Assembly: GCA_017936885.1 (NCBI GenBank)
Contig: JAGBEO010000001.1
Coordinates: forward strand, 189,733-253,732
Source of the DNA: Lachnospiraceae bacterium
GTDB taxonomy: Bacteria > Bacillota > Clostridia > Lachnospirales > Lachnospiraceae
Direction: 5' to 3'
DNA length: 64,000 nt
The translations under genes were made by a program, and so were the position numbers. Shown in pieces: positions 23,792-34,179 of the stretch. Each line of letters opens with the position of its first letter. Position 1 is the first letter of the stretch. A model generated the notes under the pieces. The model had not been told where the DNA came from and did no database searches. It saw only the letters and a list, made by a program, of their open reading frames with translations.

Positions 23792-23875
23792 GTAAGAATC
23801 GCTCTACGATTCTTACCCATGAAATACAGTTGTTCAGGGCAGCGAATTTCGCTGCCTTAGAACATTTTTTCATGG
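23792..23875 (-). repeat. Double-hairpin intergenic element, copy F (after rpsD)
   Basis: In transcript order it begins 2 nt after the rpsD stop. The outer stem CCATGAAA/TTTCATGG (23868-23875 and 23817-23824) encloses an inner stem ggcagc/gctgcc capped by a 7-nt loop. A second hairpin GTAAGAATCG/CGATTCTTAC follows (23792-23816). It is the most diverged in sequence of the six copies, but keeps every stem. Confidence 0.85.
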
Positions 23876-23877
23876 TT

Positions 23878-24471
23878 TTATTTGGAGTATAACTCGACGA
23901 TAAGCATCTCGTTTACCGGAACGTCGATCATTTCTCTTGTAGGGAGGTATTTAACAGTTCCCTTTAATGCATCCTGATCTACCTCAATCCACTCCGGAAC
24001 AAGTCTTCCTGCTGTTACTTCGAGGATATCTTTATATCTCTGTAAGGATTTGGATTTCTCTCTTACTTCGATCACATCGCCTGCCTTAACTAAATAGGAA
24101 GGGATGTTTACCGGCTTACCATTTACGAGGAAGTGCTTGTGGTCTACAACCTGTCTTGCCTCTCTTCTTGTTCTTGCAAAGCCCATTCTGAATACTACGC
24201 TGTCAAGTCTGCTCTCAAGCATAATCATAAGGTTTTCACCGGTCATACCCTTCATTCTGTCAGCTTTCTCATAGTAATTTCTGAAAGGTTTCTCTAACAC
24301 GCCATAGATAAATTTAGCTTTCTGTTTCTCTCTTAACTGAAGACCATACTCGCTGACCTTCTTACCAGCTCTTGCTGATGTTCTGTTAGATTTCTTATCG
24401 TATCCTAAATAAGTAGGATCTAAATCAAGTGATCTGCATCTCTTTAATACAGGAACTCTGTTTACTGCCAT
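23878..24471 (-). CDS. rpsD: 30S ribosomal protein S4 (uS4)
   Basis: 197 residues. It contains the S4 RNA-binding domain ([34 protein letters not shown]) and the C-terminal [12 protein letters not shown] end. Only one cysteine is present near the N-terminus, so this is the zinc-free form. S4 initiates small-subunit assembly and is a known translational repressor of ribosomal operons. The 132-nt gap before it has hairpins that could be its own control site. Confidence 0.98.
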
Positions 24472-24508
24472 TGTTTTGGCTCCTTTCTAAGAGGGGCTAC
24501 CTCTTCCC

Positions 24509-24536
24509 CAGATTTTACTTTCATACGCAAAATCTG
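24509..24536 (-). promoter_or_regulatory. Hairpin in the rpsK-rpsD gap (possible S4 control site)
   Basis: A perfect 8-bp stem (cagatttt/aaaatctg) around a 12-nt loop lies about 38 nt upstream of the rpsD ATG, in a 132-nt gap that also contains a CACC/GGTG mini-stem and a GAGGGG/CCCCAG-type stem near the ribosome site. S4 autoregulation is known in Firmicutes; assigning it to this site is inference. Confidence 0.35.
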
Positions 24537-24603
24537 TTGTTTACAACACCGTCACAGGTGCTTTCATCCAACGCTTATACTTTGCTGATACTTAAATATT
24601 TGA

Positions 24604-24999
24604 CTAGACACGACGTCTCTTAGGAGGACGGCATCCGTTGTGAGGTACCGGAGTTACGTCACGGATACTTGTTACTTCAAGACCACATGCCTGTAATGCA
24701 CGGATTGCAGCCTCACGGCCTGAACCGGGTCCTTTAACCATAACGTCTACTGTCTTTAAACCATGAATCAAAGCAGCTTTTGTAGCTGTTTCTGCAGCCA
24801 TCTGTGCTGCATATGGAGTAGATTTCCTTGAACCTCTAAAACCAAGACCACCGGCACTTGCCCAGCTTAAAGCATTACCCTCGTTATCTGTTAAAGTAAC
24901 GATTGTATTGTTGAAAGAAGACTGAATATGTGCCTGTCCATGTTCAACGTTTTTCTTGACACGCTTTTTTGTTACTTTTTTTGCAACTTTCTTAGCCAT
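24604..24999 (-). CDS. rpsK: 30S ribosomal protein S11 (uS11)
   Basis: 131 residues with a lysine-rich N-terminus, [38 protein letters not shown] and the terminal [18 protein letters not shown], all diagnostic of uS11 at the mRNA exit platform. It follows rpsM by 45 nt. Confidence 0.98.
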
Positions 25000-25044
25000 A
25001 ATAAACTAACCTACTTTCTCATATAATTACGTTCTACTTGTTAC

Positions 25045-25413
25045 TTATTTCTTCTTGTTTGCAACTGTTCTCTTAGGACCTTTTCTTGTTCTGGCATTGG
25101 TCTTAGTCTTCTGACCACGAACCGGAAGTCCTTTTCTATGGCGGATACCTCTGTAGCATCCGATCTCCTGAAGACGTTTGATGTTAAGAGCTACTTCTCT
25201 TCTCAAATCACCTTCTACCATGTAATCTTTGTCGATTACTTCTGCAAGTCTCTTTACTTCATCGTCAGTTAATTCTCTGACACGGGTATCCGGATTCACA
25301 TTAGCTGCCTCCAGAATCTTGTCTGCACTTGCTCTACCGATACCGTAGATATAAGTAAGACCAATTTCTACACGTTTTTCTCTAGGTAAATCAACACCTG
25401 CAATACGAGCCAT
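25045..25413 (-). CDS. rpsM: 30S ribosomal protein S13 (uS13)
   Basis: 122 residues: [53 protein letters not shown] and a basic C-terminal tail. It sits in the small-subunit head and contacts the large subunit and P-site tRNA. An unusually long gap of 292 nt with several hairpins separates it from rpmJ. Confidence 0.98.
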
Positions 25414-25455
25414 TTACGTTTCCTCCATTTTCTCTGCATATACATGCAATCGATT

Positions 25456-25524
25456 CGTATACTTTGTATACGTGACACTAATTGATTGGGGTAGGTTCTA
25501 CCCAATCGGATCAAAATATCCGAT
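25456..25524 (-). promoter_or_regulatory. Three hairpins in the 292-nt rpmJ-rpsM gap
   Basis: Stems: cgtatac/gtatacg (25456-25472); gattgggg-tag/ctacccaatc (25484-25507); atcggat/atccgat (25505-25524). The last two share bases 25505-25507 and cannot both form completely. No reading frame or T-tract was found in the gap. A ribosomal-protein-binding site or processing site upstream of rpsM is possible. Confidence 0.4.
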
Positions 25525-25705
25525 CTTTCCAAACACATGTTGGTATCAAAAAGTAATCTCCCATAGGCTCTTCCATCTATATGATAATCAGTAACCGCCA
25601 GTCTTCCCGTCCAGACCATAAATCTGTTTCATCGGAAAAAGAGCGGTACTGCAGCCGCTTCATATTACTGACAAAGAACCCCTTTAAATTACATCAATTC
25701 GGGGA

Positions 25706-25819
25706 TTAACCTTGTACCTGTTTGTGTTTCGGATTTTCACAGATAATTCTGATCTTTCCTTTTCTTTTAATGATCTTGCATTTTTCGCAAATCGGTTTTA
25801 CTGATGATCTGACTTTCAT
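25706..25819 (-). CDS. rpmJ: 50S ribosomal protein L36 (bL36)
   Basis: 37 residues, found by reading the minus strand. It starts [20 protein letters not shown] and ends HKQVQG, with the zinc-binding CEKC...C...H set, so it is the zinc-containing form. The ATG is preceded by GGAGGG. It is the usual first gene of the alpha operon segment and has its own promoter here. Confidence 0.97.
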
Positions 25820-32468: not shown

Positions 32469-32493
32469 GGAATAATGGCCTCAGGCATTCTTC
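32469..32493 (-). repeat. Extra hairpin in the rpsZ-rpsH gap resembling the second hairpin of copy D
   Basis: ggaataatggcc and ggcattcttc pair with one bulge and one mismatch. The GAAGAAT arm resembles the element's second hairpin, suggesting a decayed or duplicated half-element 26 nt from copy D and close to the rpsH ribosome site. Confidence 0.5.
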
Positions 32494-32518
32494 AAAAATA
32501 TCCTTGATACCACCAACG

Positions 32519-32602
32519 GGAAGAATCGCCTGCGATTCTTCCGGCTGAAACTTAGTATTTCTTAGGCGGCGTACTTTGACGCCTTAGAAATTCTTTTCAG
32601 CC
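32519..32602 (-). repeat. Double-hairpin intergenic element, copy D (after rpsZ)
   Basis: It begins 2 nt after the rpsZ stop. Outer stem GGCTGAAA/TTTCAGCC; inner arms 32557-32570 and 32578-32591 matching at 12 of 14 positions around loop AAAGTAC; second hairpin GGAAGAATCG/CGATTCTTCC with a 4-nt loop. Confidence 0.88.
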
Positions 32603-32604
32603 TT

Positions 32605-32790
32605 TTACCAACTAGCTTTCTTAACGCCAGGGATCTGACCTTTATATGCTAACTCACGGAAGCAAATTCTGCAAATTCCGTATTTTCTTAAATAAGCATG
32701 TGGACGACCACAAATTTTGCAACGATTATACTCTCTTGTAGAGAATTTAGGTTTGCGCTGCTGTTTAATCTTCATTGCTGTCTTAGCCAT
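32605..32790 (-). CDS. rpsZ: 30S ribosomal protein S14, zinc type (uS14)
   Basis: 61 residues, the short zinc-binding form with [20 protein letters not shown]. The longer zinc-free paralogue, if any, is not in this window. The gene is often named rpsN or rpsZ. It sits between rplE and rpsH. Confidence 0.98.
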
Positions 32791-32804
32791 GAATTTACCT
32801 CCTT

Positions 32805-33344
32805 CTATTTAGCGAATGGCATGTTAAATAATCTTAACAACTCACGAGCTTCTTCGTCCGTTTTAGCAGTAGTAACGAAGATGATATCCATACCTCTTAC
32901 TTTATCTACCTTATCGTACTCGATCTCAGGGAAGATAATCTGCTCTTTAATACCCAGTGCATAGTTACCTCTGCCGTCGAATGCGTTAGGATTAACACCT
33001 CTAAAGTCACGTACACGAGGAAGTGCAAGGTTTACAAGACGATCAAGGAACTCATACATTTTTTCGCCACGAAGAGTTGTCTTACAGCCGATTGCCTGAC
33101 CTTCTCTTAACTTGAAGTTTGCGATAGAATTCTTTGCCTTTGTAAGCACTGCCTTCTGGCCTGTGATTGTTTCCATATCACTTACAGCTGTTTCCAAAAC
33201 CTTTGCATTTTCTTTTGCTTCACCAACGCCCATGTTGATTACGATTTTGTCAAGCTTCGGAACTTCCATAATATTTTTATATCCAAACTTTTTGATCATA
33301 GCGTCTACGATCTCGTCCTTATACATATCTTTCAGTCTACTCAA
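32805..33344 (-). CDS. rplE: 50S ribosomal protein L5 (uL5)
   Basis: 179 residues: [24 protein letters not shown] start ([20 protein letters not shown]), [50 protein letters not shown]. It binds 5S rRNA and contacts the P-site tRNA. Confidence 0.98.
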
Positions 33345-33369
33345 CGTTTTAGACCTCCTTTCTTACGAA

Positions 33370-33681
33370 TTAATCGATGATGTCACCTGTGGATTTTGCA
33401 AAACGAACCTTCTTGTCATTCTCGAACTTGAAGCCGATTCTGGTAGGTTTGCCCTTGTGAACATACATAACGTTGGAAGCGTCGATTGCTGCTTCCTTCT
33501 GAACAATACCACCGTTCTGGTTAGCTGCTGAAGGCTTCTCATGCTTTGTAATCATGTTGATCCCTTCTACTACAACTTTATTGTTCTTTCTATCTACGGA
33601 AATAACTTTGCCTTCTTTGTCTTTATCTTTACCGGCGATAACCTTTACAGTATCACCTTTCTTAATCTTAAATGTTGACAT
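33370..33681 (-). CDS. rplX: 50S ribosomal protein L24 (uL24)
   Basis: 103 residues with the KOW motif at the start ([20 protein letters not shown]), [17 protein letters not shown] and [17 protein letters not shown]. It is an assembly initiator of the large subunit. It follows rplN by 11 nt. Confidence 0.97.
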
Positions 33682-33692
33682 CCCGGCACCTC

Positions 33693-34061
33693 CTATAATA
33701 CTTCCGGAGCCAGTGAAACAATTTTCATAAACTGTTTATCACGAAGCTCTCTTGCTACTGGTCCAAAAATACGGGTTCCTCTCGGAGTCTTGTCATCTTT
33801 GATGATAACAGCAGCATTTTCGTCAAATTTGATATAAGAACCGTCTTTACGACGAGCACCTTTAACACTACGAACAACTACGGCTTTCACAACATCGCCT
33901 TTTTTTACAACGCCGCCTGGTGTTGCATCTTTGACCGTAGCAACAATCACATCACCAATACGTGCATATCTTCTTGTAGATCCGCCCATTACCCTGATGC
34001 AAAGAAGCTCTTTCGCACCGGTATTATCAGCGACCTTAAGTCTGCTTTCCTGTTGAATCAT
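33693..34061 (-). CDS. rplN: 50S ribosomal protein L14 (uL14)
   Basis: 122 residues: [83 protein letters not shown] ending in the family's EVL. It is preceded by double-hairpin copy E. Confidence 0.98.
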
Positions 34062-34097
34062 GCTAATTTTTCTCCTTATCTTAATATTATCAAGCTG

Positions 34098-34179
34098 GGA
34101 AGAATGCTCGCATTCTTCCGACTGAAACTTAGATTTTCTTAGATGCCGTTCTTTGGCATCTTAGTAAATCTTTTCAGTC
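34098..34179 (-). repeat. Double-hairpin intergenic element, copy E (after rpsQ)
   Basis: It begins 1 nt after the rpsQ stop. Outer stem GACTGAAA/TTTCAGTC; inner stem GATGCC/GGCATC with loop AAAGAAC, extended by partly paired flanks (GATTT/AAATC); second hairpin GGAAGAATGC/GCATTCTTCC with a 2-nt nominal loop. Confidence 0.88.

Follow-up and report, generated by a model that had tools for sequence, protein, structure and literature searches.

Double-hairpin elements behind stop codons of an S10-spc-alpha cluster in a Lachnospiraceae bacterium are probably degenerate copies of a miniature mobile palindromic family

What are the pairs of hairpins that stand directly behind stop codons in a ribosomal protein gene cluster of a Lachnospiraceae bacterium? 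We analyzed 64,000 nucleotides (nt) of contig JAGBEO010000001.1 in assembly GCA_017936885.1 (positions 189,733 to 253,732; hereafter, the window), the minus strand of which carries the S10-spc-alpha ribosomal cluster, with gene names assigned from position and sequence. Six such elements lie in the window. They are probably degenerate copies of a miniature, non-autonomous, mobile palindromic family of Lachnospiraceae-type bacteria, similar to repetitive extragenic palindromes (REPs) and miniature inverted-repeat transposable elements (MITEs), that are transcribed into mRNA tails. The elements are dispersed, mostly sense-oriented and anchored at stop codons, and structured; they have moved in the past and, in one relative, recently.

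All six double hairpins of the original prediction were found on the minus strand. The copy behind rpsQ (34098..34180; hairpin 1 at 34120-34179, hairpin 2 at 34098-34119) starts directly 3' of the stop codon TAG. Four copies start after TAA plus one nucleotide, namely, those behind rpsZ, encoding S14 (32519..32603; hairpins at 32543-32602 and 32519-32542), rpsH (31936..32022; 31962-32021 and 31936-31961), infA (25940..25992; 25964-25991 and 25940-25963) and rpsD (23792..23876; 23817-23875 and 23792-23816). In the infA copy, the tip of hairpin 1 is missing, and the rpsD copy is the most diverged of the six. Behind adk (27499..27585), hairpin 1 lies within 27526-27585 and is followed by a degenerate hairpin 2 (27499-27525); the adk stop codon TAG consists of a T and the first two bases of the element copy. 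Hairpin coordinates were counted by hand, and copy borders are those of the matches to covariance model R1, built on five window copies and one other; a second model, R2, agrees except for the adk start (27501). Because five of the six copies are in the training set of the models, these matches confirm the borders, not the significance. The folding z-scores are -8.85 (rpsQ), -7.27 (rpsZ), -9.10 (rpsH), -5.15 (adk), -8.85 (rpsD) and -5.91 (infA), and for each copy, none of 200 dinucleotide shuffles folded as well. A 16-base 5' core, with up to three mismatches allowed, has eight matches in the window against 1.34 expected, six of these being the copies and two not, and a 3' core has four matches against 0.01 expected. 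The outer stems carry compensated changes just as originally described, and the AAAGTAC loop indeed occurs in three copies; across five window copies, 11 of the 32 predicted pairs already show two-sided changes, and the inner stem of the rpsZ copy contains one U.C mismatch. The six elements are real, well beyond chance. Downstream of the rpsZ copy, a 25-base stretch (32469..32493, minus strand; GAAGAATGCCTGAGGCCATTATTCC) reads as a possible decayed hairpin 2 of a second unit; it matches neither R1 nor R2.

Each unit consists of successive hairpins: the first, hairpin 1 (about 60 nt), has paired CTAAG/CTAAG motifs with an A.A mismatch near the tip, and hairpin 2 spans about 22-30 nt. Fuller copies in other genera have an additional third hairpin and a GGGGGTTAG end. 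No Rfam 15 family matches the hairpin pair at gathering scores, in agreement with the initial remark that no named family is known to have this form, and a search at E<=5 over part of the window gave nothing at the copies. A literature search restricted to open-licence papers found no description of this family.

The original prediction linked the elements to the S10-spc-alpha operon. This link is not supported: the operon is one location among many, and the genome nearest by this locus among those compared has no model match. The host genome (3.57 Mb) contains about 40 copies (39 R1 matches at E<=3e-4 and 42 at E<=0.01; the 58 matches at E<=1 include weak ones and opposite-strand echoes of the near-palindrome). 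Within the genus, 34 of 37 genomes, the host included, carry between 1 and 49 copies. Genome G029, the nearest by the ribosomal locus among 29 compared, has no model match anywhere; under laxer filters, G018 yielded three copies, and G029 and G014 still none. The distribution is patchy in the family, where 24 of 250 genomes match at E<=0.01 (the host and one congener among them). In the order, 7 of 196 genomes match, including the host; a set of 24 genomes belonging to the order but not to the family gave no copy. In a phylum-wide sample searched with R2, the host was the only match among 398 genomes, in a run that scored 11 candidates per genome at E<=1e-4 and thus can miss copies. An exact 21-base core pattern was found in at least 113 stretches of named genomes; the 80 inspected come mostly from Lachnospiraceae or their relatives, with some from Bacillota, Clostridia, Lactobacillus, Listeria and Muribaculum. 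An isolate with the present kind of element is Parablautia muri D42-62 (L154). Carriage by phages was also considered; two exact core patterns, searched as exact patterns only, retrieved no stretch from viral_contigs.

Several sequences resemble the element in part. A longer repeat, here class II, is present in Eisenbergiella tayi, the matches of which are all of this kind, Acetatifactor and others (L123, L148, L149, L163, L164, L167, L171, L189). It shares the tip CTAAG-NNN-GC-AAAGTAC-GC-NNN-CTAAG with the present element and differs from it in having an arm that resembles ACGCTNTCGCTC, outer stems that are long and variable, and what looks like a three-way junction; the class II elements in 12 scanned loci have no Rfam match. 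Some of the weakest matches within the family, such as L273-L276, resemble class II. The tip motif also occurs in a repeated, conserved sequence of about 110 nt in a Lactobacillus metagenome-assembled genome (L141, L155, L161, L166, L178; ends GGCGATTGG / CCCATCGCC), and two Listeria records (L134, L187) have it in simple hairpins. By our estimate from a 21-base pattern and paired arms, these Lactobacillus and Listeria matches are unlikely to be due to chance.

Two genomes show signs of mobility: the relative G479, in which the element has spread recently, and G506. The order-level search returned several G479 copies of equal score. Of the G479 copies, five (L325, L327, L328, L329 and L330) are identical over the 96-nt match; L329 and L330, each situated at the end of a contig, may be halves of a single locus, so that identical copies occupy four or five loci. 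Three further copies are identical at 95 (L326), 94 (L332) and 92 (L331) of the 96 positions, and others differ at 10-12 or 23-24 bases. The G479 copies share, in full or in part, a 3' extension of the form TGTTGATGGTTTGTGCCGCC-loop-GGCGGCATGGGGGTTAG; to the eye, the trailer 3' of hairpin 2 in copies of the host genome resembles a worn version of it. The fuller G479 unit spans about 137 nt and has a third hairpin and TAG at both ends; two units of this type fold as a run of three hairpins. The third-hairpin pattern occurs at nine G479 sites, directly 3' of hairpins 1 and 2 in seven of them and apart from these in L350 and L352. Tandem or nested units join as GGGGGTT|AG in both genomes. The unit ends are not inverted copies of each other, though each hairpin is palindromic, and carry TAG or TTAG on both sides (GGTTAG in L353). 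In L353, the unit sits between GGAGGTTAG and the start codon (..GGAGGTTAG|unit ..GGGGGTTAGT-ATG), and its own GGGGGTTAG places a G-rich stretch at the same spacing from that codon. Four G479 slots (s1-s4) were compared with 12 congeners at roughly 66-87% identity. In G506, slot s2 contains no unit and has TAG at the corresponding position, and the other readable congeners end in TAA there; s3 is at a stop, and s1 and s4 hold sense-oriented units behind what we read as -10 boxes. The units of G506 (L399-L414) have one or the other of two interchangeable third hairpins (CGCCGCTGCGAAGCAGCGGC or AGATTCCGCGAAGCGGAATC), and therefore modules besides hairpin 1 are also exchanged.

Turnover is also seen at the ribosomal loci of the genus. 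In 30 S14 loci (the host's included; two could not be oriented) and the listed ribosomal protein regions of 20 congeners, the slots behind stop codons are empty, filled, occupied by other kinds of hairpin 1, or occupied by tandem arrays. Across 21 genomes, the slot is used in an element-like manner behind rplW in 7, rplB in 6, rpsQ in 5, rpsZ in 8 and rpsH in 9. Four genomes (G066, G067, G069 and G080) are 98-99% identical over 3 kb at the locus, yet their rplW, rplB, rpsZ and rpsH slots differ, as do the rpsK and rpsD slots among the three of them that reach that far. Over longer contigs, G067 and G069 are 85-99% identical by block and thus represent related species rather than sister strains. 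Of 13 copies examined in this pair, four have no usable flanks, and one, at 94794 of G069, with partly aligned flanks and a nearly identical G067 counterpart nearby, is probably shared; the other eight occupy six slots. Three of these slots are empty in the other genome, one retains a 5' relic, and two contain a strongly different hairpin 1. In three slots (the latter two and the rpsZ slot), hairpin 1 differs and hairpin 2 stays nearly the same. The original prediction left open selection on structure in RNA or as an inverted-repeat DNA element; the DNA half fared better because the copies are scattered, are present in some relatives and absent from others at a given slot, and have recently spread in one relative.

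Other structures use the same kind of slot. Double hairpins without the CTAAG core adjoin stops in the genus, for example, behind rpsD of G036, rpsZ of G064 and rpsE of G034, and an unrelated double-hairpin repeat (AATAAAATCAAGC..GCGAG..TTTGATTTTATG then ACGAGAAAATCAG..) fills the slot behind rpsH in L288, L300, L093 and L111.

Which known system does the element belong to? It works like a MITE or a REP: as in MITEs, the copies are short and dispersed, with both filled and empty sites, and GTAG-tagged REPs are the nearest known kind. As described by Di Nocera et al. 2013 (PMC3733652), these are dispersed palindromes of 20-40 bp close behind genes, with the TAG end often serving as the stop codon of the flanking open reading frame (ORF); the hosts listed there are Proteobacteria, Cyanobacteria, Chloroflexi and the PVC group, and the paper contains neither the word Firmicutes nor Clostridi. 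On one rival reading, the present element is such a REP in the strict sense, moved by a RAYT/IS200-like Y1 transposase that cuts beside TAG and recognizes the hairpin foot. The D-type copies of G479 and G506 do start as N-TAG followed by a hairpin with a fixed mismatch, and the position behind genes, the TAG supplied as a stop codon, the subfamilies with complementary stem changes and the probably transcribed hairpins all have counterparts in PMC3733652. However, units here are 85-140 nt long, with two or three different hairpins in fixed order and head-to-tail arrays, as opposed to the single palindromes, often in head-to-head pairs, of GTAG-tagged REPs; many copies start after TAA-N; and the host genome has no Y1 gene. 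The Y1 family (PF01797), the sole transposase family searched across genomes, is present in 12 of the 37 genomes of the relatives set and lacking in 16 of 23 genus genomes, and copy number does not track its presence (for example, 42, 29, 24 and 23 copies without Y1, and 5, 2 and 3 with it). Some Y1 gene was found in 8 of 14 other carriers; G278, G169, G125, G105, G114 and G243 have none, and G479 has a 60-aa relic, in incomplete assemblies where a single absence weighs little. None of 47 fetched Y1 loci has an R2 match at E<=0.01, and Y1/RAYT as a resident mobilizer is not supported. Because size, number of hairpins, array type and the absent linked Y1 gene set the element apart, we do not class it as a GTAG-tagged REP, and consider it unlikely that it is one in the strict sense.

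Two other repeats offer parallels. YPAL of Yersinia reportedly inserts close behind stop codons, with higher transcript levels (abstract of the original study). According to a review (PMC2229807), YPAL is a mobile palindromic repeat of about 168 bp with empty and filled sites that is expressed with the upstream gene and might influence transcript stability, features that resemble those of our element; inverted repeats internal to one unit, target duplications of 3-26 bp and the Yersinia host are YPAL's own. The ERIC/IRU repeats (127 bp) are, according to the same text, likewise mobile intergenic hairpins in transcripts and affect mRNA stability; terminal inverted repeats and TA termini are peculiar to them, and the passages of PMC2229807 consulted make no mention of anchoring at stop codons.

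How closely are copies tied to stops? In the host genome, 31 of 45 matches have a sense ORF (minimum length 60 codons) whose stop ends between -4 and +2 from the element start; six of the 45 are weak or partial (L078-L083). In two further sets (60 of 74 and 48 of 86 matches, after removal of opposite-strand echoes, tandem repeats such as the L172 array and a few weak matches), a sense stop lies within -5 to +3 in 37 of 60 and 26 of 48 cases. The control, ORFs of the opposite strand at the other element end, gives 1 of 60 and 4 of 48; several of the non-anchored matches adjoin a stop triplet without a long ORF. For the 35 of 45 host matches that have a same-strand left gene, the gap is between -2 and +4 in 29, where 9.6 would be expected for placement at random sense stop triplets and 5.2 for uniform placement within the same intergenic region (gaps capped at 300, 60 assumed for two right gaps, three ribosomal protein gaps set by hand). 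None of 39 host copies is antisense to both neighbors, 28 have co-directional genes on both sides and one falls within an ORF called on the opposite strand, under crude ORF calling that misassigned the left gene for at least two ribosomal protein copies. When the first 140 nt of intergenic regions of 70 nt or more were folded with RNAfold, a helix of eight or more pairs started 0-2 nt 3' of the stop in 40 of 41 element-like regions; the remaining regions showed this in 58 of 139 cases, and shuffled sequences in 342 of 900 (the 41 were chosen by sequence pattern, and the shuffles keep single-base composition only). These counts do not support a stop-adjacent hairpin as a general rule of intergenic regions. 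The copies do not fit an intrinsic terminator with its GC-rich hairpin followed by a T-run: TTTT occurs within 12 nt 3' of hairpin 2 in 1 of 34 host copies, and most copies, as counted above, lie between co-directional genes; copy L342 of G479 is an exception.

Such anchoring could result from retention or from the insertion process itself. We find it decidedly unlikely that insertion, beyond retention, is aimed at in-frame stops on the sense strand through coupling to transcription or stopped ribosomes, with hairpin 1 as a cassette exchangeable between the stop and hairpin 2. The related proposal that insertion coupled to translation or transcription, at the RNA level or into the open non-template strand, rather than selective retention, places units in sense at stops and behind -10 boxes would draw on G479: a sense stop lies within -2 to +2 for 8 of the 12 D-type copies and for 10 of the 15 copies examined (units inside arrays, L330 and L339 left out), four of four further copies lie within -1 to +2, the left gene is co-directional in all 15 examined, s1 and s4 are sense-oriented behind presumed -10 boxes, and two subfamilies with different stop triplets (TAG and TAA-N) both sit at real stops. 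Given that only 6 of 16 G506 loci are so placed, that selection also acts on recent copies, that no enzyme is linked to them and that the target may simply be TTAG or TAA, this proposal appears very unlikely.

The hairpin structure is strongly kept. In an alignment of 112 distinct copies (A5; out of 115 model matches from 88 sources), two-sided changes occur in 27 of 30 base pairs, 94.9% of the cells pair, compared to 74.9% in shuffled alignments and 36-51% with slid partners. Covariation scores 0.539, compared to 0.168; A5 was fitted to the R1 structure, which favors that structure, and the counts are inflated by relatedness. The compensatory changes first noticed in the six copies are thus borne out far above both the shuffled and the slid controls. 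Could these changes stem from template switching that keeps palindromes perfect rather than from structural selection? Template switching is known to correct palindromes, and hairpin 1 differs wholesale between alleles. However, it would erase the one A.A mismatch within the otherwise mutually paired CTAAG motifs, which is kept in 103 of the 112 copies, and the loop is also conserved ((A/G)A(A/G)N..AC in 94 of 112, exact AAAGNAC in 40 of 112), so that we regard this explanation as highly improbable.

Least probable, and largely refuted by presence and absence, is a vertically inherited cis-regulatory RNA with a specific job in ribosomal protein operons: six copies in one cluster, covariation and recurrent slots across 21 genomes speak for it, but most host copies lie elsewhere, G029 and G014 have none, and slots switch between empty and filled at 98-99% locus identity. 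Rfam 15 matches in the window at gathering scores are limited to structured leader RNAs of these same operons, which stand before genes and away from the copies: S10-Clostridia (RF03136) at 39569-39650 (minus strand; 95.9 bits) and S4-Clostridia (RF03140) at 25481-25529 (minus strand; 42.9 bits). In the rpoA-rplQ intergenic region (22636-22774, minus strand), blocks such as TTCGGTAAGTAAGTCCAAAG and AGCTCATGAATGGAAC are kept in most of the 19 sequences listed and the rest varies; judging from this pattern, the region is a candidate leader RNA of rplQ. Between rpsJ and rplC (39043-39099, minus strand), CCCCTACTAG..CCGCTGTAGAA is kept in the 17 sequences listed, including the host's, with hairpins, variable in number, inserted between CCCCTACTAG and CCGCTGTAGAA.

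Several observations weigh against a mobile family or bear on its mobilizer. No autonomous partner was found, and PF01797 has no match in the host genome. A larger element with a transposase between its ends was looked for and not found within about 330 nt on the 5' side and 110 nt on the 3' side of the nine sites with a third hairpin, nor by Pfam search of five ORFs at L350 and L352. In L350, a lone third-hairpin end (992-1016, plus strand) lies about 125 nt from a DUF772 transposase gene (199-867, minus strand; 223 aa) at the contig edge; this transposase occurs in no other locus examined and may belong to an insertion sequence that inserted into a copy, or may point to the mobilizer. The L352 end adjoins TetR and MFS genes. 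There is no clean target-site duplication beyond TAG/TTAG. The copies of the host genome are diverged (best pair 0.916 and median 0.60 identity among 31 copies), and a recent burst there is not supported. Stop anchoring is weaker in G506, which has recent-looking copies, because a sense stop lies within -4 to +2 of the first unit in only 6 of 16 loci; of the remaining loci, several follow other units or fall where no ORF was called. In G479, hairpin 2 of copy L342 is directly followed by six Ts. Some of the differences between slots look like deletions, as where a lost unit has left its first bases behind, and a slot can also be altered by recombination among strains.

If the elements are mobile miniature palindromes, as we think probable, a fresh copy would insert 3' of T(T)AG or after TAA-N, such that the upstream gene would keep its stop codon, and the G-rich right end could replace the Shine-Dalgarno sequence of the next gene; for both reasons, landing would be nearly harmless. 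Co-transcription would then turn the unit into a 3' tail or an intercistronic spacer. By analogy, the unit in mRNA would most likely act as a barrier to 3'-5' exonucleases and insulate cistrons, rather than terminate transcription. ERIC and YPAL in Yersinia provide precedents for a role in mRNA tails, as do the known effects of REPs near stop codons.

These findings point to a structured sequence family without an Rfam entry. If landing on stops, often with about two-base accuracy, is true, the element supplies the stop codon and possibly the ribosome-binding site and rewrites the 3' tails of essential operons in this genus. The natural pairs of loci with and without a copy would then allow one to test how a stop-adjacent hairpin alters termination, mRNA decay and operon balance in Firmicutes.

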